A stretch of 64,000 nt of DNA from assembly GCA_021201665.1 (NCBI GenBank), contig JAJQEO010000121.1, positions 1 through 64,000 on the forward strand, written 5' to 3'. Position 1 is the stretch's first letter. Each line of letters begins with the position of its first letter. The notes beneath the pieces were generated by a model, which had not been told where the DNA came from, did not search any database, and saw nothing but the letters and a program-made list of their open reading frames with translations. The position numbers were made by a program, and so were the translations under genes. Source of the stretch: Lachnospiraceae bacterium. Its GTDB lineage: Bacteria; Bacillota; Clostridia; Lachnospirales; Lachnospiraceae. Of this stretch, positions 25,963 to 45,750 are shown piece by piece.

Positions 25963-25963
25963 T

Positions 25964-26884: not shown

Positions 26885-27042
26885 CTGATATACAGGAAAT
26901 TCGCTCCCTGTACGAAAAAATCTCTGCTTGCCGGGACAGCTGCCTGATGATGCTTTGACTGTTTTAAAATCAGGCGAGGGAATGATTACGTTACATTCCT
27001 GAACATTTGGCACTTGGTGTCATCATTTTATTGTGATTTTTG

Positions 27043-27071
27043 TTGCAAAAATGGCAGGATCTTGGTATAAC
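27043..27071 (+). promoter_or_regulatory. Candidate sigma-A promoter ahead of the CODH-like pseudoenzyme/acsB
   Basis: TTGCAA-N17-TATAAC. Confidence 0.55.
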
Positions 27072-27108
27072 AGAGAGTAGAAATAAACAAAGAAGAGAGG
27101 CGAATGAA

Positions 27109-27801
27109 ATGAGTGATTCTGCATTACCGAAACTCGAAGTCGCGGACATCATCCAGGCACTGGACGGGGTCTGCAATTCAAAGGTCGATACGACCGGTTC
27201 AACAAAGCCGCTCCTTGAGTGCGTGGTTTCCGGCGTACTGCGCGGCGCGGCTGTTCTGCTTGGGACAGATGGCTCTGAGGTCAGAGACACGGATGAATAT
27301 GTCGCCCTGATCAAAAAGCTGATCGCGAATGACATCGTGGTGCTGGCGATCGGCTATCCAGTACAGGTGGCCCTGGACGCGGGACTGATTGCCGCAGAGG
27401 CAAAGGATCTGTGCGGAGCGGGATTAAAACGTGTCTGTGAACTGGCTTCGATTCCTCCGGTACTGCCGCTTGGCGGGCTGGAGAACGTGGGCAATGTCGT
27501 GACGATCGCAACTGCCTTGTGTAATGATTCCGGTCTTACGGTACCGCAGCTGCCGGTAGTGGGCTGTGACGCGGCCGGTGTGACAGCGCAGGCGGTCGAG
27601 CTTGGCAACACCTTTGCGGGACTTGGCGTAGATACGTTCATCGGCATTATGCCGTACGAGGGTTCTCTTGAAGAAGTATTTGCGGCGAGCGGACTGAAAA
27701 ACGGCCCGGATGCCACACAGACGATTTCTGCGGATCTGGATGAGCTTGCCGACGCCCTGATCGCGGATATCGAGAAAAAGCGTGCGGCGATAGCCATCTG
27801 A
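27109..27801 (+). CDS. CODH C-terminal-domain paralog lacking C-cluster ligands (putative pseudoenzyme)
   Basis: Clear similarity to the C-terminal ~240 aa of the AcsA encoded here (DVTGTTKPLIECVKSGVIRG vs DTTGSTKPLLECVVSGVLRG; RDLCGAGLKRVCQLADIPPVL vs KDLCGAGLKRVCELASIPPVL). Confidence 0.9.
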   Translation: MSDSALPKLEVADIIQALDGVCNSKVDTTGSTKPLLECVVSGVLRGAAVLLGTDGSEVRDTDEYVALIKKLIANDIVVLAIGYPVQVALDAGLIAAEAKDLCGAGLKRVCELASIPPVLPLGGLENVGNVVTIATALCNDSGLTVPQLPVVGCDAAGVTAQAVELGNTFAGLGVDTFIGIMPYEGSLEEVFAASGLKNGPDATQTISADLDELADALIADIEKKRAAIAI

Positions 27802-27915
27802 TGATACAAGGATTCCTTGTATCATGGCACTGACCGAAGCAAAACGCAGCTTCAAGATTATGAAGTGCGTAAAAATCTATAGTATTATCTAACTTTATAC
27901 TAGGAGGATAGTAAA

Positions 27916-30045
27916 GTGACTTTATTTGATATTATTTACAGCGGAAATGATGAATTATTTGCCCGCGCGGACAAGGCGATCAGTGACGCGATCGCTCAGT
28001 ACGGCGAGGACAAAGCAGTGGCCTTTCCGGACACTGCCTACAGCCTTCCCTGCTACTATGGTGTGACCGGCCAAAAGGTGGGCAATCTCGGTGAGCTGAA
28101 GGCAGCGCTTGCCAATGTGAAAGAAACTCTGATGGGCAGAAAGCCGAGACTGAACGATGTGTTCAATTCCGGCATCGCGTCTGCACTCTGCGCGGAGTTT
28201 CTGGAGGTCTTGAAGTATCTTGACGGCGCGGCTCCCTACGAGCTTCCGCGCTATGGACATCTCTCTGATGCCATGATCCGTGAGCTGGGTGTACCGCTTG
28301 TTACCGGAGATATCCCGGGTGTGGCGGCGATCATCGGTACAGCTCCGAACGCGCAGGACGCAGTTGATCTGGTAAAGAGTTATCAGGCGCAGGGCATCCT
28401 GGTAACACTGACCGGCGGCGTGATCGACCAGTGTGAATCTCTCGGTTTGAAGACTGGTTTTAACATTCGTGTGATCCCGCTCGGCGATGAGATGCAGTCC
28501 GTGATTCATGTTGTATCCGTGGCTGTCCGTGCTGCCCTGATTTTCGGCAATATCACTCCAGGCGATCTTCCAGGACTGGAGAAATACACGATGGATCGTG
28601 TGTTCGCGTTTGTAAATGCTTACGGTCCGCTGACGGACGAGATCTTTGCGTACGGCGGCGGCGCGATCGCGCTGGGCTTCCCGGTTATTACCAATGAAGA
28701 CCGCTACAGAGTTCCGAAGAGCCTGATTTATCAGGAGGATGTCTCCAAGTTTAACGCGACCTCTCTGGAGGCTCGTGATATTAAGCTTAAGATTACAAAC
28801 ATCGATATCCCGGTAGCATTCGCATCAGCATTTGAGGGCGAGATTATCCGCCGCGGCGACATGCAGGTCGAGTTCGACGGCTCCAGAGTGGACTGCTTCG
28901 AGCTGGTACACAACAAGGATGCTTCTGAGGTAGAGGATCACAAGATCGAAGTCATCGGACCGGACATTGACGAGTTTGAGGTGGGCAGCAAGCATTCGAT
29001 CGGCTACATAGTAGAGGTTGCCGGCAAGAGCATGCAGGCGGACTTCGAGCCGGTATTTGAGCGTAAATTCCATTCTTATCTGAACTGTATCGAGGGTCTG
29101 ATGCATACTGGTCAGCGTGACATGATCCGAATCCGTATCAGCAAGGATACCTTCAACGCGGGCTTCCGCGCGAAGCACCTTGGCGAAGTCCTTTACGCGA
29201 AGGTAAAGAGCGAGTTTGCGGCAGTTGTGGACAAGTGTCAGGTGAAGGTAATCACCGATCCTGAAATGTGTACAAAGCTCCGCCATGAGCTTGCAATCCC
29301 GATGTTTGACAAGCGTGATGAACGTCTGACGACTCTGACGGATGAGGGCGTGGATGTTTACTATAGCTGCATTATGTGCCAGGCATTTTCCCCGAGCCAT
29401 GTCTGTGTGGTTACTCCGGAGCGTCTGGGCCTGTGCGGCGCTGTTTCTTGGCTGGACGCAAAGGCGACCAACGAGCTGGATCCGCAGGGACCCTGCCAGG
29501 TAATCACCAAGGAGAAAGTTATCGACGAGCGTATCGGCGAGTATGAGGATGTCAACGATGCTGTCCGGAAGTTCTCCCAGGGCGCACTGGAGGATGTATC
29601 TCTGTATTCCATTATTGAGAAGCCGATGACAAGCTGCGGCTGCTTCGAGTGCATCTGCGGGATTGAGCCGCTCTCTAACGGCGTCTGCATCGCGAACCGT
29701 GAGTACGCAGGCATGACCCCGATCGGCATGACCTTCTCCGAGCTTGCATCCATGACCGGCGGCGGTGTACAGACACCGGGCTTCATGGGTCACGGCAAGC
29801 ACTTCATCTCTTCCAAGAAGTTCATGAAGGCAGAAGGCGGCATCGCACGTATCGTATGGATGCCGAAGGATCTTAAAGACCAGGTGGCGGATCGCCTGAA
29901 CGAGACAGCAAAAGAGCTTTACGGAATCGATAACTTCGTCGATATGATTGCGGATGAGACCGTAGTTACCGAAGACCCCGAAGCACTGCTCGAATTCCTG
30001 ACCGAAAAAGGCCATCCCGCTCTGGAGATGGAACCAATGATGTAA
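27916..30045 (+). CDS. acsB: Acetyl-CoA synthase (CO dehydrogenase/acetyl-CoA synthase subunit alpha)
   Basis: CIMCQAFSPSHVCVVTPERLGLCGAVSWLDAKA and SCGCFECICGIEP A-cluster motifs. Confidence 0.97.
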   Translation: MTLFDIIYSGNDELFARADKAISDAIAQYGEDKAVAFPDTAYSLPCYYGVTGQKVGNLGELKAALANVKETLMGRKPRLNDVFNSGIASALCAEFLEVLKYLDGAAPYELPRYGHLSDAMIRELGVPLVTGDIPGVAAIIGTAPNAQDAVDLVKSYQAQGILVTLTGGVIDQCESLGLKTGFNIRVIPLGDEMQSVIHVVSVAVRAALIFGNITPGDLPGLEKYTMDRVFAFVNAYGPLTDEIFAYGGGAIALGFPVITNEDRYRVPKSLIYQEDVSKFNATSLEARDIKLKITNIDIPVAFASAFEGEIIRRGDMQVEFDGSRVDCFELVHNKDASEVEDHKIEVIGPDIDEFEVGSKHSIGYIVEVAGKSMQADFEPVFERKFHSYLNCIEGLMHTGQRDMIRIRISKDTFNAGFRAKHLGEVLYAKVKSEFAAVVDKCQVKVITDPEMCTKLRHELAIPMFDKRDERLTTLTDEGVDVYYSCIMCQAFSPSHVCVVTPERLGLCGAVSWLDAKATNELDPQGPCQVITKEKVIDERIGEYEDVNDAVRKFSQGALEDVSLYSIIEKPMTSCGCFECICGIEPLSNGVCIANREYAGMTPIGMTFSELASMTGGGVQTPGFMGHGKHFISSKKFMKAEGGIARIVWMPKDLKDQVADRLNETAKELYGIDNFVDMIADETVVTEDPEALLEFLTEKGHPALEMEPMM

Positions 30046-30049
30046 AAAA

Positions 30050-30700
30050 CTCAAGAATGCAGCGAAGCTGCATTCTTAGGGAGATTCGCCTGCGAATCTC
30101 CCGTAAAATCGACTTGCAAAGAAATCTCGCTTGCGAGATTTCTTGCATGGCGATTTTGAGTTTTTTAACGAGAAAAAAATGCGAAGCATTTTTTTCGAGT
30201 CTATGATGTAGACCAAGCAGAGGGATTCATTCGCTTGCGAGAATTTCCTGCGAGAGAATCATGGCTTTTTTAACGAGAGAAAATGCGGAAAGCCGCGCCA
30301 TTAGAAATCGCGTTTCACGCGATGGGCGCGGCCTGCGTCCTCGATTTTCTTCGAAAATCGGGACATGTGCCGGAGGCATTTTCTCGAGTCTATGATGTAG
30401 GCCAAGCAGAGGGATTCGCTCGCTTGCGAGATTTCTTGCATGGCGATTTTGAGTTTTTTAACGAGAAAAAATGCGAAGCATTTTTTTCGAGTCTATGATG
30501 TAGACCAAGCAGAGGGATTCATTCGCTTGCGAGAATTTCCTGCGAGAGAATCATGGCTTTTTTAACGAGAGAAAATGCCGAAGGCATTTTTCTGAGTCTA
30601 CGATGTAGGCCGAGTAGTGAGACTCATCTGATAGCTTTAAAACACTTAAATGAAAGCATGATTCTGAGTCTACGATGTAAACCACCCTTTTTTTACAATG
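30050..30700 (+). repeat. Hairpin-rich repeat array in the acsB-acsD intergenic region (family B); five copies of GAGTCTAYGATGTARRCC
   Basis: Copies at about 30197, 30386, 30489, 30594, 30666; ~90-bp identical segments 30197-30286 and 30489-30578. Confidence 0.85.
30287..30373 (+). repeat. Structured dispersed element family A, two-hairpin copy nested in family B array
   Basis: ggaaagccgcgccattagaaatcgcg..cgcgatgggcgcggcctgcgtcctcgattttcttcgaaaatcgggacatgtgccgg. Confidence 0.8.
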
Positions 30701-30729
30701 AAGTACCACCACAAGGAGGATTAAAAGAA

Positions 30730-31671
30730 ATGCCGTTTACTGCGAAATCAGGAAAATTTAACGCAAAAATCAACACCGTAGCAGTCGGTACCGGTGACAA
30801 GGCGATCACACTCGGCGGAGAGAATGTGTTCCCATTCTACACCTTTGACGACGCGATTGAGAACGCGCCGAAGGTCGGTATCGAAATCACGGACGGTGGC
30901 ATGGAAAGCGAGCCGGAATGTGTGCAGAAGCTTTACGAGGGCTGCACAACGGTTGTTGACATGGCGAAAAAAGCCGTTACATTTGAGGGTGTTGACTTTT
31001 TGAGCATTCGTTTGGAGGGCGGAGATCCGAACGGAAAGAACAGACCGACAGAAGAGCTTGTCCAGATCGTCAAGGAAGTCGCTGACGCTGTGGATGTGCC
31101 CCTGGTTGTCTGTGGATGCAAAAATGTTGAGAAAGATTCTGAGCTTCTTGATAAGGCTGCCGCTGCGCTGGAAGGCAAAAATGCCATGATTCTGGCGGCA
31201 AAAGAAGAGAACTATAAGACCGTAGGTGCGTCTGCTGGCCTGGCTTACAAGCAGGTAGTCGGCGCCGAGTCAGCCGTGGATATCAACCTTGCGAAGCAGC
31301 TGAATGTACTGCTGACCCAGCTTGGTGTTGACAGCAAGACCATTGTTATGAATGCCGGTACCGCGGCAGTCGGATATGGATTTGACTATGTGATTTCGAC
31401 TCTGGATCGTGTGAAGGCAGCCGCCCTCTCCCAGGGCGACGCTACGCTGCAGATGCCGATTATTACTCCGGTCGCTTCTGAGGCATGGACTGTGAAGGAA
31501 TCCACCGCTACGGAAGAGGATATGCCTGCATGGGGCAATCTCGAAGAGCGCGGGATTGATATGGAAGTGGAAACTGCCGCTGCAGTTCTCGCTGCCGGTT
31601 CGGATGCAGTGATTCTGAAACATCCGGAATCTGTCAGAACCGTCAAGGCCATGATCACAGAACTGATTTAA
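30730..31671 (+). CDS. acsD: Corrinoid iron-sulfur protein small subunit
   Basis: ALGGENVFPFYTFD; GGDPNGKNRPTEELV; aaggagg RBS before ATG 30730. Confidence 0.93.
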   Translation: MPFTAKSGKFNAKINTVAVGTGDKAITLGGENVFPFYTFDDAIENAPKVGIEITDGGMESEPECVQKLYEGCTTVVDMAKKAVTFEGVDFLSIRLEGGDPNGKNRPTEELVQIVKEVADAVDVPLVVCGCKNVEKDSELLDKAAAALEGKNAMILAAKEENYKTVGASAGLAYKQVVGAESAVDINLAKQLNVLLTQLGVDSKTIVMNAGTAAVGYGFDYVISTLDRVKAAALSQGDATLQMPIITPVASEAWTVKESTATEEDMPAWGNLEERGIDMEVETAAAVLAAGSDAVILKHPESVRTVKAMITELI

Positions 31672-31743
31672 TGATTGATCATCATTAACTGATATTTGAC
31701 TGCGTTATTTGACTGCTATAAGAAGCGAAGGAGGATTCATAAA

Positions 31744-33087
31744 ATGGCATTAAAAGGCTTGGATATCTTTAAATTATCACCGAAGAAAAACTGTAAAGAG
31801 TGCGGCAGCCCGACCTGTATGGCTTTCTCTATGAAAGTGGCGCAGGGCGCGGTTTCTATTGACAAATGTCCTTATTTTTCCGAGGACGCTAAGGCCTCTC
31901 TGAATGAGGCAACTGCGCCGCCCATGAAGACCATCAAGGTCGGTACCGGAGATCATGAATACGCACTCGGCGGCGAGACCGTCCTGTTCCGCCACGAGAA
32001 AACCTTTGTCAGCAGAACACGTTATGCCGTAACGGTATGCAGCTGCATGGATGATGCGGCGATTGATGCGAAGCTTGAGGAAATCAAGAGCGTAGATTAT
32101 GAGCGTATCGGTGAGCGCATGTTTACAGAAATGATTTATGTAAACTACGCGGCGGCAGCCGGAAAAGAAAAATATCTGGAGCTGGTAAAGAAGGCTGCGG
32201 CTCTTGACCGTGTGCTGGTTCTTGGCTGCGATGATCCGGATGTGGCAGCGGAAGCCCTGGCACTTGTAAAGGATGGCAAGCCGATCCTGAACGGCGCGAA
32301 CGCGTCCAACTATGAGGCGATGAATAAAGTAGCAACCGACGCGAAGGTGACCCTCGGCGTATCCGGCTCCGACATTAACGAGCTGTATGACACCCTGGCA
32401 GCCCTTGAAAAGCTTGGCAACAAGAACCTTGTCTTTGACTGCGGCGTCAATTCCGTAAAGGAAGCTTATCAGATCGCGGTGCAGTTCCGTAAGGCGGCTA
32501 TCAAGGACAGCAACCGTACCTGCGGTTATCCGTCCATCGTCCGTCTGGACCGTTTAAGCGGCGGAGACAAGCATCTGCAGGCAGCTCTGCTTTCCCTGTT
32601 CACTATGAAGTATGGTTCCATCATCGTTCTCGACCAGATGACCTATGCGGAAGCAAACCCGGTCTATGGCCTCAGACAGAACCTTTTCACCGACCCGCAG
32701 AAGCCCATGAAGGTAGAGCCGGGCATCTATCCGCTCAACGGCGCGGACGAGAATTCTGTCTGCCTGACCACGGTAGACTTCGCTCTGACCTACTTCCTGG
32801 TATCCGGCGAGCTGGAGCGCTCCGGCGTACCTTGTAACCTCATCATCAACGATGCAGGCGGTCTTTCCGTACTGACCAGCTGGGCAGCAGGCAAGTTCTC
32901 AGCCGGTACGATTGCGAAGTTCTTTGAGGAGCAGCAGATCGAGAGCAAGGTGAAATCCAGAAAGCTGGTCATCCCGGGCAAGGTAGCCGTACTGAAGGGC
33001 GAGCTGGAGGCAAAGCTTCCGGGATGGGAGATCATAATCGCTCCGAGAGAGGCTGTACAGCTTGTAAAGTTTATGAAAGAGCTTTAA
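31744..33087 (+). CDS. acsC: Corrinoid iron-sulfur protein large subunit
   Basis: LDIFKLSPKKNCKECGSPTCMAFSMKVAQGA 4Fe-4S motif; C-terminal corrinoid-binding region. Confidence 0.95.
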   Translation: MALKGLDIFKLSPKKNCKECGSPTCMAFSMKVAQGAVSIDKCPYFSEDAKASLNEATAPPMKTIKVGTGDHEYALGGETVLFRHEKTFVSRTRYAVTVCSCMDDAAIDAKLEEIKSVDYERIGERMFTEMIYVNYAAAAGKEKYLELVKKAAALDRVLVLGCDDPDVAAEALALVKDGKPILNGANASNYEAMNKVATDAKVTLGVSGSDINELYDTLAALEKLGNKNLVFDCGVNSVKEAYQIAVQFRKAAIKDSNRTCGYPSIVRLDRLSGGDKHLQAALLSLFTMKYGSIIVLDQMTYAEANPVYGLRQNLFTDPQKPMKVEPGIYPLNGADENSVCLTTVDFALTYFLVSGELERSGVPCNLIINDAGGLSVLTSWAAGKFSAGTIAKFFEEQQIESKVKSRKLVIPGKVAVLKGELEAKLPGWEIIIAPREAVQLVKFMKEL

Positions 33088-33298
33088 TGGCAGCTGTGTG
33101 ATCAGATGAATCAGACAGATGTTGTGAACAAGAACGCCTGATATCAATGGCTGAATATTTGAACGGAATATTTGAACTCAATATGTAACTGTTGTAATTT
33201 GTCTGTTCTTCAAATCGGAATAGCTGCTTCTGGGAGAAAGGGACAGCCTTCCGGTTTGGAGCATGACAAACAATCTACCATAAAGGAGAACAACCATC

Positions 33299-34084
33299 AT
33301 GGCAAAATTTGTAACAATTGGAGAGAGACTTTCCACCACTGCTCCGGCTGTCAACAAGGCATTCATGGAAAGAGATCCGGAGCCGATTCTCAAAAGAGCA
33401 AAGCAGCAGCTGGATGCAGGCGCGGTTTACCTTGATGTAAATATCGGACCGGCGGAAGGCTATGGCGAGGATCTGATGAAGTGGGCAGTACAGCTCCTTC
33501 AGAGCAACTTTGACAATGTCCCGCTTGCCCTGGATACTTCCAATAAGAAAGCGATCGAGGCTGGTATTTCCGTTTATAACCGTTCAAAAGGAAAGCCGAT
33601 CGTAAACTCTGCGGACGCATCCGGCAGAATTGAGAACATCGACCTCGCGGCTGCAAATGATGCGATCGTCATCGCGCTTTGCAACGGCGAAGGAATTGCG
33701 AAGGACAACGATGAGCGCATGGAATACTGCCAGCTGCTGCTCGAGAGAGGCATGGAGCAGGGCATGGAAGCGACCGATATGTGGTTTGACCCGCTGTTCC
33801 TGGTAGTAAAGGGCATGCAGGACAAGCAGATGGAGATCCTGGAGTTCATCAAGATGCTCTCTGACATGGGCTTAAATTCCACCGGCGGACTTTCCAATAA
33901 CTCTAACGGCATGCCGAAGACCATCCGTCCGATCATGGATTCCGCGCTGGTAGCGATGTGCATGATGCAGGGTCTGACCTCCGCAATCGTGAACCCGAAC
34001 GACCTGCGCCTGATGGAGACCATCAAGTCTTGCGACGTATTCAAGGGCAATACCCTGTATGCGGATTCCTATCTGGAGATCTGA
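33299..34084 (+). CDS. acsE: Methyltetrahydrofolate:corrinoid/iron-sulfur protein methyltransferase
   Basis: Pterin-binding fold motifs ERDPEPILKRAKQQLDAGAVYLDVNIGPAEG; LSNNSNGMP. Confidence 0.95.
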   Translation: MAKFVTIGERLSTTAPAVNKAFMERDPEPILKRAKQQLDAGAVYLDVNIGPAEGYGEDLMKWAVQLLQSNFDNVPLALDTSNKKAIEAGISVYNRSKGKPIVNSADASGRIENIDLAAANDAIVIALCNGEGIAKDNDERMEYCQLLLERGMEQGMEATDMWFDPLFLVVKGMQDKQMEILEFIKMLSDMGLNSTGGLSNNSNGMPKTIRPIMDSALVAMCMMQGLTSAIVNPNDLRLMETIKSCDVFKGNTLYADSYLEI

Positions 34085-34319
34085 TTTTCGAAATCATCCG
34101 CTGAAAACTTGGTAATCCGTCGTGACGGATAAGATAATGAATTTTATTCATATACCCGGGGAGTATACGACCGTCAATTGTCATGGACGTGCCTGTATAC
34201 CGCTCCGGGTATCCATTTATTCCTGCGAGGCAACGAGCCAAGTAGCCAGAGGAGTCATAAGGGATCCGTCGGCTTTGCCGACACCTTATGACATATCATA
34301 AGGTATCCACCGGCAAAAT

Positions 34320-34439
34320 GGAAAGCCAGGCCATTTAAAATCGCTGCGCGATGGGCCTGGTACCGTTCTCGATTTTCTTCGAAAATCGGAACATTGCCTG
34401 CGTCCCATATCCTCTTCGAAGATATGGGACATGTGCCGG
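34320..34439 (+). repeat. Structured dispersed element family A, full-length (three-hairpin) copy
   Basis: ggaaagccaggccat..atgggcctggtaccgttctcgattttcttcgaaaatcggaacattgcctgcgtcccatatc..gatatgggacatgtgccgg. Confidence 0.85.
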
Positions 34440-34555
34440 TTCCCCTTATGGCTTAGCTTGTACGGATATTTTAAAGAATAAGGAAACTGCATTTTCATTT
34501 ATATATCTGCTTTTTGTCGGATATAGGATGATATTTACGGAGAGAAGAGAAAACT

Positions 34556-36568
34556 ATGTTTAAAGTGACTTTTACATTCGAAAACGGCAATGAGACAGTG
34601 GGTTATGCTCTGGAAGGAGAGAGCCTTCTGGATGTCGCAAAGAAAATGAACGTGGCCATTGATGCGCCCTGTAATGGAAATGCAGCTTGCGGAAAATGTA
34701 AGGTAAAGCTTGTCGGGGGAGAACTGGATACGAAAAAGACCAGCCATATCTCCGGGGAGGAGTTTGCGCAGGGATGGAGGTTAGCCTGCGTGAGCAAAAT
34801 TAACGCGGATGTGCAGGTAATGGTACCGGACATTGCCTCTGCGTATCGCAGCCGGATGAAAGTTGCGGACTTAAGTTCGGCAGAAGAAATACAGATTTTT
34901 GAGAAAACGAAGACAGACATGGCGGGGGCCGGAATCGGTTTTGGAAATGACCTGGATGTCATCACCGTGACGATGGAAGAGCCGTCTCTGGATGATACGA
35001 TGCCGGATAACGAGCGTCTTACCAGGGCGGTGGAATCCGCCTGCGGCGTGGAAAAGGTAAAGCTGCCATTTGTCGTGCTTCAGAAGCTCTCCGAGACTCT
35101 GCGCAGGAGTGGCTTCCAGCTAAAATGCCTGATTCGGAGGGGATCAGATCATTCTGCAGGCGGCGGTGCTGCAGACGGCAGCAGCTCAGACGGCTCGAAA
35201 GCGGGCGATTATTCGTCGGGTTCTTCTCCCAAAAAAGTAGAAGTGCTGGATATTTTCCCGGCCACAGAAGAGCCAAAGATCTGCGGCCTGGCAGTCGATA
35301 TCGGCACGACGACGGTATCTGCGTTGATTATCGACATGCTTACCGGTGAGATCCTTGCGAAAGGCTCTTCAGGCAACGGTCAGATCCGCTATGGAGCGGA
35401 TGTGATCAACCGCATCATTGAGCAGCAGAAAGAGGGCGGACGCAAAAAGCTGCAGGACGCGATCATCAAAGAGACGCTCAATCCGATGATCAGCCAGATG
35501 TGCGGCTCTATCGGGATAAAGCCGGGACAGATTTACCGCGCATGCATCGCGGGCAACACCACCATGAACCATCTGCTGTTAGGCGTTGACGCGGATCCGG
35601 TTCGCATGGAGCCGTTTATCCCGACCTTTTTTGAGACAAATTCGGTCTACGCGCATGATCTCGGACTGGAACTCTATGAACACGCCCGGGTCATCATTTC
35701 CCCGAATATCGGAAGCTATGTGGGCGGCGATATCACCGCCGGTACGCTCGCCAGCACGATCTGGAATAAGGAAGAAATGTCTTTATTCATTGACCTGGGT
35801 ACCAACGGCGAGCTTGTATTTGGCAATTCGGACTTTATGATGAGCTGTGCATGCTCTGCCGGGCCCGCTTTTGAAGGCGGCGACATCAGCTGCGGCATGC
35901 GAGCCACAGATGGCGCGATCGAAGCCTGTGTCATCGATAAAGAGACCATGGAGCCGACCTTTACCATCGTCGGTGATGAAGGTCAGAAACCAGTGGGCTT
36001 GTGCGGCTCCGGCATCATCGACGTGATCAGCGAGCTGTTCCGCTGTGGGATCATCAGCCCGAAGGGAAAATTTATCCGGGAAGGTTCGCGTGTCCGTCAT
36101 GACCAGTATGGCATGGGAAGCTATGTCCTGACCTATAAAGAGGACGCAGCGTCTATAAAGGACATCGAGATCACCGAGGTCGACATCGACAGCTTCATCC
36201 GCGCGAAGGGCGCGATCTTTTCCGCCATCCGCGTCATGCTGCAGTCGCTGGATTTCGATGTGTCCATGATCGACCACGTCTATGTGGCTGGAGGCATTGG
36301 CAGCGGCATCAACATGCGCAATGCAGTGTCTATTGGCATGTTCCCGGACATCGAGATGGAGAAATTTACCTACATCGGCAATTCCTCTTTGTCCGGCGCG
36401 TACGCGATCCTGCTCTCTGCCGAAGCGGAGGCAAAGGTCTCTGAGGTGGCACATAACATGACCTACCTCGAACTCAGCAACGAACCCACCTACATGGATG
36501 AATTTGTCGCCAGCTGCTTTTTGCCGCACACAGACGCGGGACTGTTTCCGTCGGTCACGATGAAATAA
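34556..36568 (+). CDS. acsV: Reductive activator of corrinoid protein (RACo-type, 2Fe-2S + ASKHA domain)
   Basis: N-terminal ferredoxin motif CNGNAACGKCKVKL; ASKHA motif CGLAVDIGTTTVSALI; position in acs cluster. Confidence 0.9.
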   Translation: MFKVTFTFENGNETVGYALEGESLLDVAKKMNVAIDAPCNGNAACGKCKVKLVGGELDTKKTSHISGEEFAQGWRLACVSKINADVQVMVPDIASAYRSRMKVADLSSAEEIQIFEKTKTDMAGAGIGFGNDLDVITVTMEEPSLDDTMPDNERLTRAVESACGVEKVKLPFVVLQKLSETLRRSGFQLKCLIRRGSDHSAGGGAADGSSSDGSKAGDYSSGSSPKKVEVLDIFPATEEPKICGLAVDIGTTTVSALIIDMLTGEILAKGSSGNGQIRYGADVINRIIEQQKEGGRKKLQDAIIKETLNPMISQMCGSIGIKPGQIYRACIAGNTTMNHLLLGVDADPVRMEPFIPTFFETNSVYAHDLGLELYEHARVIISPNIGSYVGGDITAGTLASTIWNKEEMSLFIDLGTNGELVFGNSDFMMSCACSAGPAFEGGDISCGMRATDGAIEACVIDKETMEPTFTIVGDEGQKPVGLCGSGIIDVISELFRCGIISPKGKFIREGSRVRHDQYGMGSYVLTYKEDAASIKDIEITEVDIDSFIRAKGAIFSAIRVMLQSLDFDVSMIDHVYVAGGIGSGINMRNAVSIGMFPDIEMEKFTYIGNSSLSGAYAILLSAEAEAKVSEVAHNMTYLELSNEPTYMDEFVASCFLPHTDAGLFPSVTMK

Positions 36569-36615
36569 ATACGATATTTTTCGTAAAAGGTTTTATGTAG
36601 AACCTAAAGCATTCG

Positions 36616-36754
36616 GGCATCCGGCCCCTCGCCGGGAAGGCATCCTCGTCATCCGGACGGGATAAGCCATCGCGAAACGATTTTAAATAGTCGGATGCCG
36701 TTAAAGGTCACACCTGTAGAGGCAGAAATATCGTAAATTTGTCAGGGCGTGACC
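36616..36754 (+). other. Structured intergenic segment: multibranched stem (36616-36699) plus hairpin (36706-36754)
   Basis: ggcatccg/cggatgcc outer helix enclosing three hairpins; ggtcac/gtgacc hairpin. Confidence 0.55.
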
Positions 36755-36918
36755 TGTAACGTAACTTGTAACAAAATTAGAAAGCAGACAAGAATTTCCT
36801 TGAAAAACAGCGCTTAAAGGGATACAATAAGGGCGAATTTCAGAAATCTCTTCTGAATGAATCTGCGCAGCTGCAAACGATAAGCCGCTGCGCACTAAAC
36901 TAACAAGGAGGTGAGCAT

Positions 36919-38901
36919 TTGGAAGACTACACCAAATACAGGCTGAAAAGCAGCGAAGAACTCTCGTCGGTTCTGTCGGGGACTGACCAGATCTTTGTCA
37001 TTGCCTGTAATAAATGCTTCAGGGAGTTTCAAAACATTGAAGAGCCGGAGCTGGCTGAGTTTGAAAAAATTGCTGCCGGGGAAGGAAAGACCATCACGGG
37101 AAGCGCGAGGGTCGATTTTTTGTGTAACAAGACGCAGACGGCGAAAAAACTCTCGGACCTGATTCCTGATGGCACGGAGAATGTCTTTGTGGTTTCCTGC
37201 GGGCTCGGCGTCCAGACAGTCGCGGATCTGATGCTGCAGCGTGAATCGGGGCCGGTTTCCGTATATGCGGCTGCGGATTCTCTGAACTATACAGGACATC
37301 ACGGCATGGCGCTGACGGAAAAGCGATGCGATGCCTGTGCCCAGTGTTATCTGAATATTACCGGAGGGATCTGTCCGATCGTGGACTGCTCCAAGAGTCT
37401 GGTCAATGGGCAGTGCGGCGGCGCGAAAAACGGCAAATGCGAGGTAGACCCGAATAAGGACTGTGCCTGGGAAAAAATCTACCAGAGGCTGAAAAAGCAG
37501 GGGCGCCTGGAAGAGTTTTTAAAGCAGCCGGTGCAGCTGCGGGACTATTCAAAGACCGATTACAAATTTGTACATAATTATGTGACATCGATCCGGGAGA
37601 AGAGCCTGGACGGCTATTATGGCGGTGTGCATCCTCTGGAGCATAAGGAGTTTACAGAGAATCTCCCGCTTCAGAAATTCCCGGAGCCGGAGATCGTGGC
37701 GATTCCGCTTTCCATGCACGCGGGCGCTCCCGCGACGCCGGTTGTGGCTGTGGGAGACACCGTGAAGGTCGGACAGAAGATCGGCGAGTCGGCAGGGTTT
37801 ATCAGCAGTCCGGTGCATTCAAGCGTCAGCGGTACCGTGATCGCGATCGAAGAGCGCGGCCATGCGACCAGAGGTACCTGCCCGGCAGTCGTGATCCGGT
37901 CGGATGGGAAAAATACGCTGGATGAATCCGTCCGTCCGCAGAAGTCTCTGGAGGAGCTGACGCCGGACGAGATTATCACGATTGTCAAGGAAGCCGGTAT
38001 CGTCGGCATGGGCGGCGCGGGATTCCCGACATCAGTAAAGCTCAAGCCTGCCAAACCGGTCGATACGATCCTTCTGAACGGCTGCGAGTGCGAGCCTTAC
38101 CTGACGGCAGACCATCGTGTCATGCTTGAATACGCGGATGACATCGTGTTTGGCCTGCGTGCGATCGTTAAGACAGTCGGCGCTGAGAAGGGCCTGATTG
38201 TGATCGAGGACAATAAACCGGACGCGGTCGAGCTGATGAAGGCCAAGGTGGCGGATTATGACAATCTCGATGTGGTTGTCGCCAGAACGAAATACCCGCA
38301 GGGCGCGGAGAAAATGCTGATCAAGCGCGTCCTCAAACGTCAGGTGCCGAGCGGCGGCCTGCCTGCTGATGTCGGGTGCGTGGTCAGCAACATCAGCACC
38401 ACCAAGGCGATCTCTGACGCGATCCAGAAGGGCATGCCGCTCATCGAGCGCGCGGTCACCGTGACTGGCGAGCGCCTGAAGAATCCGGGCAATTATATGG
38501 TAAAGATCGGTACTAATACAAAGGATCTGATCGATTATTGCGGAGGCGTAACCGGAAAAGACGAGATCACTTATAAGGCCGGCGGTCCGATGATGGGATT
38601 CATCCTCAAGGATCTGAACGTGCCGATTATGAAGGGATCCAACGGCATTATCTGCGTGGATACAGACCATACAGTGGAACAGCCCTGCATCAAGTGCGGG
38701 CGCTGCATGGATGTCTGTCCGATGGAGCTTTCACCACTGTACTTCGCGAAATATGCGGATGAGGAAAACTGGCAGGGCATGAAGGACATGCATGTCATGG
38801 ACTGCCTGGAATGCCGCTGCTGCGAGTACATCTGCTCCTCGAAGATTCCGCTGGTGATCAAAATCAAGGCCGGAAAGACGGCAGTAAGGGGGATGAAGTG
38901 A
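36919..38901 (+). CDS. rnfC2: MetV-like domain fused to RnfC-like NADH/flavin subunit (RnfC2)
   Basis: N-terminal ~205 aa paralogous to downstream MetV (NITGGICPIVDCSKSLVNGQCGGAKNGKCEVDP); C-terminal RnfC motifs GMGGAGFPTSVKL, LLNGCECEPYLTADHR, CIKCGRCMDVCPMELSP. Confidence 0.9.
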   Translation: MEDYTKYRLKSSEELSSVLSGTDQIFVIACNKCFREFQNIEEPELAEFEKIAAGEGKTITGSARVDFLCNKTQTAKKLSDLIPDGTENVFVVSCGLGVQTVADLMLQRESGPVSVYAAADSLNYTGHHGMALTEKRCDACAQCYLNITGGICPIVDCSKSLVNGQCGGAKNGKCEVDPNKDCAWEKIYQRLKKQGRLEEFLKQPVQLRDYSKTDYKFVHNYVTSIREKSLDGYYGGVHPLEHKEFTENLPLQKFPEPEIVAIPLSMHAGAPATPVVAVGDTVKVGQKIGESAGFISSPVHSSVSGTVIAIEERGHATRGTCPAVVIRSDGKNTLDESVRPQKSLEELTPDEIITIVKEAGIVGMGGAGFPTSVKLKPAKPVDTILLNGCECEPYLTADHRVMLEYADDIVFGLRAIVKTVGAEKGLIVIEDNKPDAVELMKAKVADYDNLDVVVARTKYPQGAEKMLIKRVLKRQVPSGGLPADVGCVVSNISTTKAISDAIQKGMPLIERAVTVTGERLKNPGNYMVKIGTNTKDLIDYCGGVTGKDEITYKAGGPMMGFILKDLNVPIMKGSNGIICVDTDHTVEQPCIKCGRCMDVCPMELSPLYFAKYADEENWQGMKDMHVMDCLECRCCEYICSSKIPLVIKIKAGKTAVRGMK

Positions 38902-38902
38902 T

Positions 38903-39526
38903 ATGCTGATTACCGGATTAAAATCAAAAGAAACCATTCACTCCCTCGCTGATGGCAAAAAAATTTTTATTATCAACTGCTTCGGGTGCCGGGAGGTCTA
39001 TTTCCCGCTGGAGGAGGCAGCACAGCTCCAGGAAGAGCTTTCCGCCTCCGGCAACGTGACCGGGATACTGACGACGGATTATATTTGCAATCCTGAAAAT
39101 TTAAAAGTAAGGCTCGACGGCCATAAGGCGGAGGTAGACGCGGCCGATGTGTTGCTTGTCTTTTCCTGCGGCGTCGGGGTACAGACCATCGCGTCTTATC
39201 TGGAAGAGAAAACGGTCTGTGCGTGCTGCGATACCAGCCGTCTGCCGGGCTTCCAGGGCGTCACGCCTCTGGAATACGACTGCGGACAGTGCGGGGAGTG
39301 TTATCTGAATCTGACCGGCGGCATCTGCCCGATCACGGCCTGTTCCAAGAGCCTTTTAAATGGCCAGTGCGGCGGGGCGAAAAAAGGCAAATGCGAGGTC
39401 GATCCCGATATGGAATGCGGCTGGGAGCGCATTTACCGGCGGCTGGAGGCGATCGGCCGGCTGGACGCGCTGAAATGTCCGACCCAGATCCGCAATTATG
39501 CTACTGATGATGCTATATCAAAATGA
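38903..39526 (+). CDS. metV: Methylenetetrahydrofolate reductase C-terminal/zinc-binding subunit MetV
   Basis: NLTGGICPITACSKSLLNGQCGGAKKGKCEVDP; immediately precedes metF. Confidence 0.9.
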   Translation: MLITGLKSKETIHSLADGKKIFIINCFGCREVYFPLEEAAQLQEELSASGNVTGILTTDYICNPENLKVRLDGHKAEVDAADVLLVFSCGVGVQTIASYLEEKTVCACCDTSRLPGFQGVTPLEYDCGQCGECYLNLTGGICPITACSKSLLNGQCGGAKKGKCEVDPDMECGWERIYRRLEAIGRLDALKCPTQIRNYATDDAISK

Positions 39527-39747
39527 CATCCCGCACTGTGCATATTGGATGGGAAATGACCTGGTGCTTTTCATATATGGCTGTCCGCAGGACATTTCAG
39601 CATAATATTTTTCGTTTGCTTTATTTCTGCTTTATTGAAACAAGGCACAGTAAAACCTGATATTCCCTGCAATATTGTAGACAATCTTGCAGGCAGGGGA
39701 TATGCACAGACAAGGATCTCTATCATACAAAAACAGGAGTGACGATC

Positions 39748-40629
39748 ATGAAAATCACAGAATTATTTGAACAGGGTGAGTTTGTAGTCACGGCGGAAGT
39801 CGGACCGCCCAAGGGGTGTCACATAGAAAACCTGCTGGAAGAGGCAAAGACCTATTTGAGCGGCATCTCAGCGGTCAATGTGACGGACAATCAGTCGTCT
39901 GTTATGCGTCTTGGCTCCCTGGCCACCTGCAAAGCTCTGAAGGATGAAGGCCTGAACCCGATCTTCCAGATCACCTGCCGCGACCGCAACCGGATTGCGC
40001 TGCAGTCAGATCTTTTAAGCGCGGCCATGCTCGGAATTGAGAACGTACTGCTGCTGACCGGCGACCACACGAAGATGGGCGACCATCCGCAGGCAAAGCC
40101 GGTCTTTGACCTGGATTCCGTTTCGCTGCTTCACACCGCGAAGCTGCTGGAAGAGGGCGTAGATCTTGGCGGCAACAAGCTGGTCGGCGAGCCGCCGAAA
40201 TTTGCCAAGGGCGCGGTAGTATCTCCCTGCAGCGACTCGGTGGACGCACAGCTCGCCAAGATGGAACGCAAGGTAGCCGCCGGTGCGGACTATTTCCAGA
40301 CACAGGCGGTCTACGAGCCGGAGAAATTCATCAAATTCATGGAGAAGGCGAAGCAGTTCGGCAAGCCGGTCCAGCTGGGCATTGTCATCCCGAAATCAGC
40401 TGGCATGGCGAAGTACATGAACGACAACGTGGCCGGTATCCATGTGCCTCAGGAGATGCTCGATGAGCTCCGCGCGGATAAAGAAAAGACCAAAGCCGGG
40501 ATTACTGGCGTAGAGATTGCGGCGCGCATCATCAAAGAGTGCCGCCCGTACTGCCAGGGTGTCCACATCATGGCATTGGGCTGGGAATCCAAGGTTCCTG
40601 CGCTGCTGGAGCAGGCCGGGATTTGTTAA
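39748..40629 (+). CDS. metF: Methylenetetrahydrofolate reductase
   Basis: FVVTAEVGPPKG; ITCRDRNRIALQSDLLSA; LLLTGDHTKMGDHPQAKPVFDLDS. Confidence 0.95.
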   Translation: MKITELFEQGEFVVTAEVGPPKGCHIENLLEEAKTYLSGISAVNVTDNQSSVMRLGSLATCKALKDEGLNPIFQITCRDRNRIALQSDLLSAAMLGIENVLLLTGDHTKMGDHPQAKPVFDLDSVSLLHTAKLLEEGVDLGGNKLVGEPPKFAKGAVVSPCSDSVDAQLAKMERKVAAGADYFQTQAVYEPEKFIKFMEKAKQFGKPVQLGIVIPKSAGMAKYMNDNVAGIHVPQEMLDELRADKEKTKAGITGVEIAARIIKECRPYCQGVHIMALGWESKVPALLEQAGIC

Positions 40630-40709
40630 GAGTTGGGTTTAATAAAAGCTGAAAAAATTGTGAGGGGTTCGTCAGATGTACCTGTCTAAAAAAGCTGAAG
40701 ATATTGTTA

Positions 40710-40738
40710 AAAAGGGAACGTCTTCGTTCCCTTTTTTA
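40710..40738 (+). terminator. Rho-independent terminator after metF
   Basis: aaaaagggaacg tcttcg ttccctttttt. Confidence 0.9.
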
Positions 40739-40841
40739 GAGGAGAATTCATGGATTCAAGATGATGCTGCATACAGGGAATCCAGTTTGTTTTTTTAAAT
40801 GGGCTGGAGCTATCCAACTGACAGGAAGAAAAGGAGTTATT

Positions 40842-41480
40842 ATGGGAGTTGCCTATAACAAGGATAATAAAGAACGTGTTCCTTTTGAACATTACCTTGC
40901 TGAATATAAAAATGCAGACCCGCAGGAGATTTGTGCACGTACGGAAATTCAGTACAACAAGGAAGGGGATTACTTCTGCCTGAGATTTCTAGGCAAAGTG
41001 TACCACATAGGATATCCGGATTTTTCCATAACTCCGGTGGCGGAAGATGGACAGGATGCTCCATTGCTGTCAATAAGCGCGGCCCGAACGCTTGTCATTC
41101 GCTATTTGCTTGAGGGATGCTTCTCTGAGGGAACAGGCAGATATCTGACCTACCGTGAGGTACCGTGGGGCGAGGTGTATTATCGCCAGTTCAATGGCAG
41201 ATGTATGATGCGGCTGGCGTATTCGTACGGGAACCGTCTGGACGCGTTTTGTTCTGCTATGGAAAAACTGGGGGCACATTCCATTAAAGCCGGAGACGCC
41301 GGATATGAGATAGAGGTATTTGATGGTTATTTCATTCGCTTCCAGCTCTGGGGCGGTGACGAGGAATTTCCGCCATCCTCACAGATCCTGTTCAGCGACA
41401 ACTTCGCGGCGGCTTTCCATGCTGAGGATCTGGTGGTGGCCTGTGATGTCATCATCAGTGCTATGAAGACCGTAAAGTAA
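40842..41480 (+). CDS. DUF3786-like protein of unknown function within the Wood-Ljungdahl cluster
   Basis: Intact ORF with RBS aaggag; family call from memory of DUF3786-type sequence. Confidence 0.6.
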   Translation: MGVAYNKDNKERVPFEHYLAEYKNADPQEICARTEIQYNKEGDYFCLRFLGKVYHIGYPDFSITPVAEDGQDAPLLSISAARTLVIRYLLEGCFSEGTGRYLTYREVPWGEVYYRQFNGRCMMRLAYSYGNRLDAFCSAMEKLGAHSIKAGDAGYEIEVFDGYFIRFQLWGGDEEFPPSSQILFSDNFAAAFHAEDLVVACDVIISAMKTVK

Positions 41481-41503
41481 AACGGCTTACGTCGTTTACT
41501 ATA
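41477..41503 (-). repeat. 27-bp palindromic dispersed repeat, copy 3 (reverse complement)
   Basis: gtaaaacggcttacgtcgtttactata. Confidence 0.7.
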
Positions 41504-41860
41504 AAAATTGAGTTACGGCGTTCGTAATTACATCGCCCCGGAACGGTGGGCTGGAACCTATATGGGGGGTGCTTTAAAGGGTGCTTTAAAGGCTGTTTTT
41601 AAGCGGCTTTTAACAGACATTTTCCTTGACAAGCCTCAGGGGTCAGCTTATAATTTTGCTGATGTAATCAAGAAAACAGCGCCTGTGGAAATTGTGTCCC
41701 GCACAATGGCATGCCTGTAAAAAACTAAATAATACATACTCCGATTACAAATTATGAGGAAAATCGCTTCTCATAATGGCTTATGATTCTACGATTGGTT
41801 TTTAATCATAAAAAGGACATAACATCATATGCCCGGATCGGAGTATAAAAGGAGGAAAAA

Positions 41861-42493
41861 ATGGGATTTTCAACCGTACCTTGCAATGAATTTGTAGAAG
41901 TGCTTGCATCCAAAGCGCCGGTACCGGGCGGCGGCGGCGCGTCCGCGCTTGTCGGAGCAGTCGGCACCGCTCTTGGCAACATGGTCGGCAGCCTGACCGT
42001 AGGGAAGAAAAAATATGCCGACGTCGAGGATGAGATGTGGGAGCTGAAGAAAAAATGTGACAAGCTTCAGGCGGAGCTTCTTACACTCGTGGAAAAAGAC
42101 GCTGAAGTGTTTGAGCCGCTCTCAAAAGCCTATGGCATGCCGCGTGCGACCGAAGAGGAGAAAGCAGAGAAGGCGCGCGTCATGGAAATCGTATTAAAAG
42201 ACGCGTGCTCGGTTCCGATGGAGATCATGGAAAAATGCTGCGAGGCAATCGAGCTGATTAAAGAGTTCGCCGCGAAAGGATCCGCCCTGGCCATCAGCGA
42301 TGCGGGCGTGGGCGCAGTGTTTTGCAAGGCGGCTCTGCAGGGCGCGAGCCTGAACGTTTACATCAACACAAAATCCATGAAAAACCGGGAGTACGCGGAA
42401 GAGCTGAACGCTAAGGCAGACGCGATGCTCGCGAAATACCCGGCGATGGCGGATGAGATTTATGAGAGCGTACTGGCGAGACTGAAGGGCTGA
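41861..42493 (+). CDS. fchA: Methenyltetrahydrofolate cyclohydrolase (cyclodeaminase/cyclohydrolase family)
   Basis: VPGGGGASALVGAVGTALGNMVGSLTVGKKKY. Confidence 0.92.
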   Translation: MGFSTVPCNEFVEVLASKAPVPGGGGASALVGAVGTALGNMVGSLTVGKKKYADVEDEMWELKKKCDKLQAELLTLVEKDAEVFEPLSKAYGMPRATEEEKAEKARVMEIVLKDACSVPMEIMEKCCEAIELIKEFAAKGSALAISDAGVGAVFCKAALQGASLNVYINTKSMKNREYAEELNAKADAMLAKYPAMADEIYESVLARLKG

Positions 42494-42725
42494 TTCGTAA
42501 AACAGAGGCAAATGTGTATTCGAAAGGCTGTAGCAAACAGCTGTAAAGGAATAGACAGGCACTAATAAAAAGCTGTAAAAAGGCCGAAATAAATATAGAA
42601 ACTGAAAATAGAACGGTGTCTAAAAAGCGGGATTTATGTGGTGTAAACTATAACGATGGTACAACACTGCAGAAGAATTTCGCCAAACGGCAAAAGAGAT
42701 AAATTAATTTTACGGAGGTATCATC

Positions 42726-43580
42726 ATGGCAAAACAGCTTCTGGGCAAAGAAGTCACGGCGGCACTGAATGAGCGTATCAAGGCAAAGGTGGCCGTACTG
42801 ATGGAAAAGGGAATCAAACCGACACTTGGAATCATCCGCGTGGGAGAGAATGAGAGCGATCTTTCCTACGAAAGAGGCGCAACAAAGCGCTGCGAAACAC
42901 TCGGTGTAGCCTGCGAGAAAATCCTGCTTCCGGCGGACGTCTCACAGGATGAGTTCCTGAGGGTAATTGACGAAGTCAATAAAAATGACGCGATTCACGG
43001 CGTTCTTCTGTTCCGCCCGCTGCCGAAGCATCTGGATCAGAGCGTGATCGAGAACGCGCTTGACCCAGCGAAGGACGTGGACTGCATGACAGATGGATCC
43101 ATGTCGGGCGTGTTCACCGGCAAGGCGATCGGCTATCCGCCGTGTACGCCGCAGGCCTGCATGGAAATTCTGGATCATTATGGCATTGACTGCACCGGCA
43201 AGAAGGCAGTCGTCATCGGCAGAAGCCTGGTCGTAGGCAAGCCTGCAGCTATGATGCTGATTAAGAAAAATGCGACCGTCACCATCTGCCACACCAGAAC
43301 GGTCGATATGCCGTCGGTAGCCCGGGAAGCAGATATTATCGTTGTGGCCGCAGGACGCGCGGGCGTGGTCGGCGCGGAATATGTGAAGCCAGGTCAGGTC
43401 ATCATTGATGTCGGCATCAATGTCAACGCAGAGGGCAAGCTTTGCGGAGATGTGGATTACGCGGCGGTAGAGCCGATCGTAGACGCGATCACTCCGGTGC
43501 CGGGCGGTGTCGGCAGCGTGACGACCTCTGTTCTGGTGAGCCATGTCGTGGAAGCGGCTGCTAAAAAAGCAGGAATCTGA
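42726..43580 (+). CDS. folD: Bifunctional methylene-THF dehydrogenase / methenyl-THF cyclohydrolase
   Basis: VGENESDLSYERGA; KKAVVIGRSLVVGKPAAMMLI; TPVPGGVGSVTTSVL. Confidence 0.96.
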   Translation: MAKQLLGKEVTAALNERIKAKVAVLMEKGIKPTLGIIRVGENESDLSYERGATKRCETLGVACEKILLPADVSQDEFLRVIDEVNKNDAIHGVLLFRPLPKHLDQSVIENALDPAKDVDCMTDGSMSGVFTGKAIGYPPCTPQACMEILDHYGIDCTGKKAVVIGRSLVVGKPAAMMLIKKNATVTICHTRTVDMPSVAREADIIVVAAGRAGVVGAEYVKPGQVIIDVGINVNAEGKLCGDVDYAAVEPIVDAITPVPGGVGSVTTSVLVSHVVEAAAKKAGI

Positions 43581-43623: not shown

Positions 43624-43652
43624 TTGACGCATTCAGGCGATTATGCTATAGT
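43624..43652 (+). promoter_or_regulatory. Sigma-A promoter for the cobalamin-riboswitch transcript
   Basis: TTGACG-N17-TATAGT. Confidence 0.75.
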
Positions 43653-43679: not shown

Positions 43680-43860
43680 TCAAGTGCAGCCCTATAGGGC
43701 TGAAGAGGGAATCAGGTGAGAGGCCTGAGCGATCCGGTCACTGTATACAGGGAGTGAGATCTCGTTTATTCCATTGCGTACCCGAACTGACAGCGCGAGA
43801 AGGAGAGATCGAGCACAGATCTGTGAGCCAGGAAACCTGCTTGGTGTGAGAGAAGAGCTT
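43680..43860 (+). promoter_or_regulatory. Cobalamin riboswitch aptamer
   Basis: agggaatcaGGTGagaggCCtgaGC..CCggtCACTGTatacaGGGAG core and B12 box gAGCCAGGAAACCTGCtt. Confidence 0.85.
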
Positions 43861-44080
43861 CCGAGTAAAGCTGAACACTCCGCACAGCCGAACATTTTAC
43901 AATTGGCTGTTGTCGCCTGTGATGGGGAAACGGGCACATGAAAATATAAAGGAATGTTGTCTCGAGGCAATGGGCAATACACAAATACCTCCTTGTGTCA
44001 GAGGGATTTCCGATACTCCGCAACCATCGGGATCCTTTTGAGACACGTACAGATGACGTTCCGCAAGCTGATCTGTACGC

Positions 44081-44135
44081 AAGGCACAATCTCAGGAAGC
44101 AGTCCGCAATGCTTCCGGGATTGTGCCTTTCTTAT
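44081..44135 (+). terminator. Long terminator-like hairpin ending the riboswitch transcript
   Basis: aaggcacaat ctcaggaagca gtccgcaa tgcttccggg attgtgcctt tctt. Confidence 0.65.
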
Positions 44136-44197
44136 GCATACGGCCGCGTTAGGATTATGTCGCTAAAGTGACTGAGACCGGTGCAAATGAAAATTTA

Positions 44198-44226
44198 TAA
44201 TATTTTCCAACCCTCCCGCATATATT
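44198..44226 (+). promoter_or_regulatory. Sigma-E-type (mother cell) promoter for spoIVA
   Basis: TAATATT-N14-CATATATT, matches the SigE consensus layout (kmATAtT / CATAcAnT). Confidence 0.65.
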
Positions 44227-44274
44227 GAAGCAGTGACACCCACGATGTGGGCAGTATATGCAGGGGGTCTTTTT

Positions 44275-45750
44275 ATGGAAAAATTCGATTTATACACAGA
44301 CATCCGCACGCGGACGAACGGTGAGATCTACATAGGAGTTGTAGGCCCTGTGCGGACTGGAAAGTCAACCTTCGTGAGGAAGTTCATGGAGCAGATGGTT
44401 TTGCCTTCCATTGATGAGGCAGAAGGGAAACCGCTCAGAGATGAATTGCCTGCAAGTGCATCAGGCAAAACCGTTACCACAGTAGAACCTAAATTTGTTC
44501 CGAAAAAAGCATTTCCGGTTGAGATCGGAGATGGGTCCGCGATGAAAATCCGGCTGGTGGACTGTGTGGGCTTCCTCGTACCGGGAGCGGAAGGCGCCTC
44601 AGAGGGTGGCAAGGACCGGATGGTAAAAACTCCATGGGATCCCAACCCGGTCCCTTTTGAAGAAGCTGCCCGGATTGGTACAAAAAAAGTCATCACAGAC
44701 CATGCTACAGTCGGTCTTGTAGTCACAACGGATGGAAGCTTCGGGGATTTGCCCAGAGAGAGCTTTTACGAGGCAGAAAAAGAGACGATTGAACTATTGA
44801 GAAAGATGGGAAAACCGTTTCTTGTGATTGTAAATTCGTCCAGACCATATTCCAGGGAAGCTGAAGCTGTTTCTAAACAGATTGCCCAGAGTCATGGCGT
44901 ACACACAATGATTCTGGACTGTGAACAGATGGGCGCGGCAGAGCTTCGCATGGTTCTGGAACAGTTCCTTCTGGAGTTCCCGCTTACACGAGTATTTTTC
45001 CAAATCCCCAAATGGGTGGAAACGCTGGATGAGGGGCACTGGCTGAAGCAGTCCCTTTTGGAGTCTGTAAAAAAGGCAACGAAATCACTTCGCACCATGC
45101 GCGATATTACAGAAATGGAGAGTGTATTTCCCATTGAAAGCAAATACATTACGCAGGCTCGTGTAGACCAGGTAAATCTAAATGATGGTAGTACGCAGGT
45201 GCTGCTATCCCTTCCTGGTTCTCTATATTATGAGATTCTCAGTGAAATGACGGGCGCAGATATCAGCAGCGAATACCAGCTGATTTCCCTGATCAGAGAG
45301 ATGTCTATGAAAAAAAGGGAATATGATACCGTTGCGCAGGCCCTTGCTTCTGTACGTGCTACCGGTTACGGAACAATTGCGCCCGCCAGAGATGAGATTA
45401 CGATGAGAGAACCCGTGATTATCCGGCAGGGCAATCGCTATGGTGTTAAAATTGCGGCTGAAGCACCATCGATTCATCTGATTCGTGCGGATGTGACTGC
45501 TGAGGTGTCTCCAATCGTAGGAAGCGAGGATCAGGCAAAGGATCTGGTTGCCTATATAGGAGATGGTGAAAACAAGGGCGAGGAAATGTGGAACACGCTG
45601 ATTTTCGGAAAATCCATTGACCAGCTTGTCGAAGAAGGAATTCATGCAAAATTGTCTTCCGTGAATGAGGATTGCCGGAAAAAGCTTCAGAATGCCATGC
45701 TAAGAATTGTAAACGATTCACTAGGGAATTTAATATTTATAATTATTTAA
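44275..45750 (+). CDS. spoIVA: Stage IV sporulation protein A
   Basis: MEKFDLYTDIRTRTNGEIYIGVVGPVRTGKSTFVRKFMEQMVLP. Confidence 0.97.
   Translation: MEKFDLYTDIRTRTNGEIYIGVVGPVRTGKSTFVRKFMEQMVLPSIDEAEGKPLRDELPASASGKTVTTVEPKFVPKKAFPVEIGDGSAMKIRLVDCVGFLVPGAEGASEGGKDRMVKTPWDPNPVPFEEAARIGTKKVITDHATVGLVVTTDGSFGDLPRESFYEAEKETIELLRKMGKPFLVIVNSSRPYSREAEAVSKQIAQSHGVHTMILDCEQMGAAELRMVLEQFLLEFPLTRVFFQIPKWVETLDEGHWLKQSLLESVKKATKSLRTMRDITEMESVFPIESKYITQARVDQVNLNDGSTQVLLSLPGSLYYEILSEMTGADISSEYQLISLIREMSMKKREYDTVAQALASVRATGYGTIAPARDEITMREPVIIRQGNRYGVKIAAEAPSIHLIRADVTAEVSPIVGSEDQAKDLVAYIGDGENKGEEMWNTLIFGKSIDQLVEEGIHAKLSSVNEDCRKKLQNAMLRIVNDSLGNLIFIII

Follow-up and report, generated by a model that had tools for sequence, protein, structure and literature searches.

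Riboswitches known to govern an RNA that acts in trans are few, and the model is a B12-dependent one: EutX of Enterococcus faecalis and its Listeria counterpart Rli55. In these RNAs an AdoCbl aptamer is joined to hairpins, and EutV is sequestered when AdoCbl is absent; they are separate transcripts, composed of the aptamer, G-loop hairpins and a terminator, that may lie at any genome location (PMC5821096). An ANTAR site requires a hexaloop with A1 and G4, and in the crystal structure G4 alone is contacted in a base-specific manner (PMC8934654, PMC8164766). A different design is that of LhrC of Listeria monocytogenes, in which a short motif is present in three redundant copies (one each in a stem-loop, in a stretch and in the loop of the terminator); these three CU-rich sites pair with the ribosome-binding site, and pairing to the Shine-Dalgarno (SD) region involves refolding of a stem (PMC4132741). 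A repeated motif in hairpin loops is also found in the CsrB/RsmY sponges.

Here we describe a locus, in a 64,000-nt stretch of Lachnospiraceae DNA (hereafter, the window), that looks like a hitherto undescribed regulatory RNA under B12 control; a literature search found no published description of it. Its likeness to EutX/Rli55, read from sequence alone, extends to the separate transcript, the aptamer, the G-loop hairpins and the terminator. In contrast to those RNAs, it does not lie beside eut genes and no EutV-type ANTAR protein was found; its loop is YCCGCA(A) instead of AxxGxx and occurs in up to three copies; it also has an anti-SD motif and an alternative helix that is conserved; and no terminator was seen between aptamer and hairpins. 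With LhrC it shares one motif repeated in loops that include the terminator loop, but the motif is UCCGCAA and not UCCC, the RNA is longer and has a riboswitch in front, and there is no sequence relation. A first reading of the window from its letters (the sequence-only reading) had likened the locus to sequestration RNAs, which turned out to be apt in an unforeseen way, since an AdoCbl riboswitch opens the unit, just as in EutX/Rli55. It had also set the loops apart from the CsrA motif of CsrB-type RNAs, correctly: they read UCCGCAA, and GGA is absent from them. The 5' part of the unit belongs fully to RF00174, but in most genomes it precedes a conserved non-coding tail and not a B12 gene.

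Predicted organization and distribution of the unit

The unit comprises, in this order, a promoter, an AdoCbl aptamer, a leader of approximately 90 nt, a conserved block, UACCUCCUU, and hairpins 1, 2 and 3 (Table 1). It would probably be transcribed as a free-standing RNA of approximately 475 nt that ends with hairpin 3. A matching promoter was located at the same place in those homologs with long enough upstream sequence, and a cobalamin aptamer preceded the unit in every homolog whose upstream sequence was checked. The aptamer, which would sense AdoCbl, gave the only Rfam match to the unit, sub-threshold matches being due to chance. In the aptamers of this RNA family, both in the window (43771-43777) and in the homologs, CCAUUG is found where the Rfam consensus has CCACUG. 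No terminator-like site was seen on the + strand between 43860 and 44080, where a Rho-dependent or unusual one is possible. The motif ACCUCCUU within UACCUCCUU is identical to the anti-SD tail of 16S rRNA; it was invariant in all aligned homologs, including those of both other genera mentioned below, and could pair with SD sequences. The promoter, the riboswitch, the anti-SD motif, the long-range switch helix described below and the terminator role of hairpin 3 had all gone unmentioned in the sequence-only reading.

Table 1. Predicted features of the unit (window coordinates).
Feature	Position	Strand	Basis or remarks
Promoter, sigma-70 type, TTGACG-17-TATAGT, extended -10 (TG)	43624..43652	+	Predicted from sequence
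Cobalamin (AdoCbl) riboswitch aptamer, RF00174	43665..43858	+	cmscan 94.2 bits (gathering score 31.5), E 3.9e-22
Conserved block GGAAUGUUGUCUCGAGGCAAUG	43951-43972	+	Between leader and UACCUCCUU
Switch strand, block A, GGAAUGUUGUCU	43951..43962	+	Complementary to 5' half of hairpin 2
GGCAAUG	43966..43972	+	Complement of CCAUUGC in the aptamer (43771-43777); tentative anti-aptamer strand
UACCUCCUU	43986..43994	+	Identical to anti-SD tail of 16S rRNA over ACCUCCUU
Hairpin 1	43995..44046	+	Predicted fold; loop ACUCCGCAACC with UCCGCAA at 44017-44023
Hairpin 2	44046..44079	+	Loop with UUCCGCAAG, UCCGCAA at 44060-44066; most conserved of the hairpins
AGAUGACGUUCC	44051..44062	+	Partner of 43951-43962 in alternative long-range helix
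Hairpin 3, intrinsic terminator	44081..44133	+	Loop GUCCGCAA with UCCGCAA at 44103-44109; U-rich tail

A DNA search of the other 46 genus genomes detected the unit in 41 (42 of 47 with the genome of the window); the named records are Lachnospiraceae, mostly MAGs, and one homolog, L039, is carried by the cultured strain 1XD42-54. When 397 genomes of the family were searched with covariance model R1, two more true homologs came from other genera: L149 (E 3.6e-6) and L150 (E 6.3e-5), in each of which the unit lies 3' of a cobalamin aptamer; the covariance model search of 395 genomes of the order gave no further homolog. Matches in G058, G070, G083, G223, G258, G135 and G094 were discarded as unrelated, being coding sequence or lacking an adjoining cobalamin riboswitch.

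Conserved loops on variable stems

Three copies of TCCGCAA, each in its own hairpin loop, had been proposed, and their positions and predicted unpaired state confirm this (mean unpaired probability of 1.0, 0.91 and 1.0 for loops 1, 2 and 3 in the window RNA). The region 43860-44150 (291 nt) folded better than shuffled sequences (z = -4.0). The copies are spaced 43 and 43 nt, so the exact period reported in the sequence-only reading is real in this genome; it is found in this genome alone, however, and the expectation of a conserved spacing failed, since inter-loop distances range from 37 to 59 nt in 40 homologs, mostly 44-45.

Comparison of the 38 aligned genus members revealed that the stem of hairpin 2 (GUACAGA/UCUGUAC) is nearly invariant and its loop core, UUCCGCA, invariant. 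The loop of hairpin 1 is kept in about half of the homologs, on a variable stem. In hairpin 3, CCGCAA is kept in nearly all of the 38 genus members, while compensatory changes were found at 13 of 15 pairs, with a score reached by none of 500 shuffles; a TTT tail follows this hairpin in homologs. The stem sequences of hairpins 1 and 3 differ both within the window and from homolog to homolog. CCGCA was present in two to four copies in all 40 homologs: in hairpin 2 of every one, and in hairpin 3 of all except L033, L137 and L150, in loops with a predicted median unpaired probability of 0.98. Loop size in the genus is 8-16 nt. Outside it, the loops of L149 (CUCCGCAAAG, GUUCCCGCAAAC and UUUCCCGCAAAA) and of L150 (CUCCGCAAGA and AUUCCGCAG) are carried by stems unrelated in sequence to those of genus members. 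Conserved loops on unrelated stems had been put forward as the mark of a repeated binding site, to be abandoned if the loops varied freely among homologs; loop conservation together with stem covariation bore this out. Since the conserved loops sit on unrelated, covarying stems, the selected element, as judged from these alignments, is the loop and not the stem, and the CCGCA loop recurs in them beyond chance.

An alternative long-range helix

RNAalifold paired the switch strand of block A with the 5' half of hairpin 2 over 12 bp. This long-range helix can form with 12 contiguous pairs in 34 of 38 homologs and with at least 8 in all 38, and hairpin 2 is possible as its alternative in every one of them. 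The mean energy difference between the two was 0.35 kcal/mol (SD 3.1; 38 homologs). Because helix and hairpin 2 compete at nearly equal predicted energy, the RNA looks bistable at hairpin 2. In the alignment 99.6% of the cells of the helix were paired, with one-sided changes only within the genus. Alignments read by eye revealed, outside the genus, a G-C to C-G exchange in L149 and matching stretches missing on both strands in L150. The single-sequence shuffle test of the helix gave 13 of 5000.

When the whole RNA was folded without constraints, GGCAAUG paired with CCAUUGC of the aptamer, and it was freed once the aptamer was forced. Release of GGCAAUG is therefore a tentative candidate for the coupling to AdoCbl; the pairing is plausible in this genome, and it is not kept in L149 and L150. 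Forcing the aptamer left the predicted balance of the two hairpin-2 states unchanged, in a model without pseudoknots.

A putative B12-gated base-pairing RNA

Comparison of homologs establishes, at the sequence level, the unit, the conservation of its loops, the covariation of its stems, the alternative helix and the independence from the downstream gene. We consider a base-pairing sRNA of LhrC-like design the most likely explanation, and a protein sponge less likely. Accordingly worded in full, the unit would be a stand-alone sRNA under control of an AdoCbl riboswitch, acting in trans, whose redundant loops and anti-SD motif pair with translation-start regions (probability of roughly 0.47). 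The 5' aptamer would sense AdoCbl, and the strand 43951-43972 would be either paired with the aptamer, engaged in the long-range helix with hairpin 2, or free. Cofactor binding would in this way set the exposure of hairpin 2, in a direction of switching that we infer. The output would be the redundant loop UCCGCA(A), in two to three copies, one of them on the terminator, plus the exposed anti-SD ACCUCCUU; by base-pairing with the translation-start regions of target mRNAs, loops and ACCUCCUU would alter translation. Conservation covers all of UCCGCAA rather than two positions, which is what a pairing seed would show. Base-pairing to translation-start regions is therefore favoured by the LhrC-like loop design together with the invariant ACCUCCUU. 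That the partner would be an RNA rather than a protein, and which targets it would have, we likewise infer; conserved loops on variable stems suit a protein site equally well, which speaks against the pairing reading.

Several searches for targets yielded none. TTGCGGA near start codons, suggested in the sequence-only reading as a way to targets, was abundant near ATG genome-wide and thus uninformative. TTGCGG upstream of AGGAGG occurred 49 times versus 35 in the reversed control, barely above it, and no convincing target emerged; nor was there a convincing one among the genes of the window. The antisense of hairpin 2 gave no gene-start match among the 30 best loci. The one attractive candidate, cobC-cbiD with UGCGGAGG at the SD, was rejected since it is not conserved in relatives, and the SD of folD because it, too, lacks conservation.

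The same features can be read as a protein sponge like EutX/Rli55, in which a riboswitch-controlled RNA sequesters an RNA-binding regulator, possibly of the ANTAR type, by its repeated loops. The layout agrees with this, with an AdoCbl aptamer, hairpins with G at position 4 of the YCCGCA core and a separate transcript (PMC5821096, PMC8934654). In our locus the place of the aptamer, upstream on a transcript that stands alone, is read from the sequence layout. True hexaloops, CCCGCA, occur in L149, and some loops of hairpin 3 read ACCGCA, with A1 and G4. Against this, the loops in the genus are larger than the ANTAR hexaloop, and where ANTAR sites fix A1 and G4 only, positions 2, 3, 5 and 6 are fixed here as well. 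Of 99 copies, 92 carry U at position 1, 4 carry A and 3 carry C; G4 is present in all. The loops are thus not hexaloops with A1 and G4, and the earlier statement that they do not follow the ANTAR A1/G4 rule held for A1, present in few homologs, and not for G4. In favour of a sponge, the genome does encode an ANTAR-domain protein, a single one (L034 1033-1659, directly after glnA); being linked to glnA and without a Pfam receiver match, it is not an EutV, and no EutV-type two-component ANTAR regulator was found among the genome's proteins. Operon leaders bound by the same protein would also be expected, but no further hairpin of the kind was conspicuous in the genome: with the hairpin-only model hairpin 3 itself was the sole significant match, and the next six (E 0.4-8) look like chance, most of them inside open reading frames. 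We therefore regard a sponge as the less likely of the two readings; the unit may work in a somewhat EutX-like way, yet on its sequence it is not classifiable as an ANTAR sponge.

Neighbouring genes and a possible role in cis

In the window the unit is preceded by folD, with which a Wood-Ljungdahl cluster ends, and followed by spoIVA. A third reading takes the unit as a cis-acting leader, hairpin 3 being a regulated terminator for the next gene and the loops serving the switch only. The bistable switch in the region would fit, and in L050 and L063 cbiD follows closely with no second riboswitch seen, so that a role in cis is possible there. However, the genes downstream differ among homologs (spoIVA, nuoE-like, cbiD and others, all but spoIVA named from reading the proteins), which makes a stand-alone RNA probable. 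In L135 a second cobalamin riboswitch (L135 1543-1721, - strand) separates the sRNA from the downstream cbiD and belongs to the latter; the gene after the unit in L150 is convergent and ends just past the terminator; and spoIVA has a conserved leader with its own promoter, CATATATT, which we take to be sigma-E-like. A separate RNA is thus the simplest reading. A switch, moreover, has no need of an identical heptamer in three loops, and altogether we consider a leader function improbable as the general explanation. In the spoIVA leader (approximately 44216-44278) and in many relatives, an inverted repeat CCCCCTGCATATA...TATATGCAGGGGG spans the presumed sigma-E -10 and the ribosome-binding site.

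Conservation due to a small protein on either strand can be practically dismissed: open frames overlap the region and, on the minus strand, an SD-like AAGGAGGT precedes a GTG, but the frame is not kept, with the spacing of the two best-conserved blocks taking all three residues mod 3 (16, 13 and 9 of 38), and the stems covary by compensatory change.

If the base-pairing sRNA is real, it represents a further, apparently independent design of riboswitch-controlled trans-acting RNA, widespread in a gut Lachnospiraceae genus. The unit makes it testable how B12 status is conveyed beyond individual operons, and whether a multi-copy loop sequence is a common riboswitch output. A broader proposal, which we put forward as speculation, is that of a new metabolite-gated sRNA family of acetogenic gut bacteria, in which AdoCbl, via a conserved three-way strand exchange, would set the exposure of seed copies and of an anti-SD mimic and so control translation of targets in trans, perhaps in corrinoid-dependent metabolism such as that of the adjacent Wood-Ljungdahl cluster. 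This cluster (window 24037-43580) codes for CO dehydrogenase, acetyl-CoA synthase, AcsC/D, AcsE, AcsV, MetF-like, FchA and FolD proteins, both corrinoid protein subunits included, and because of it the host is probably an acetogen. A 103-bp tandem repeat of 2.3 copies (window 30368-30608) is located immediately before acsD. Elsewhere in the window, a Clostridiales-1 sRNA (RF01699) was detected at 62276-62448 on the + strand, with 123 bits.
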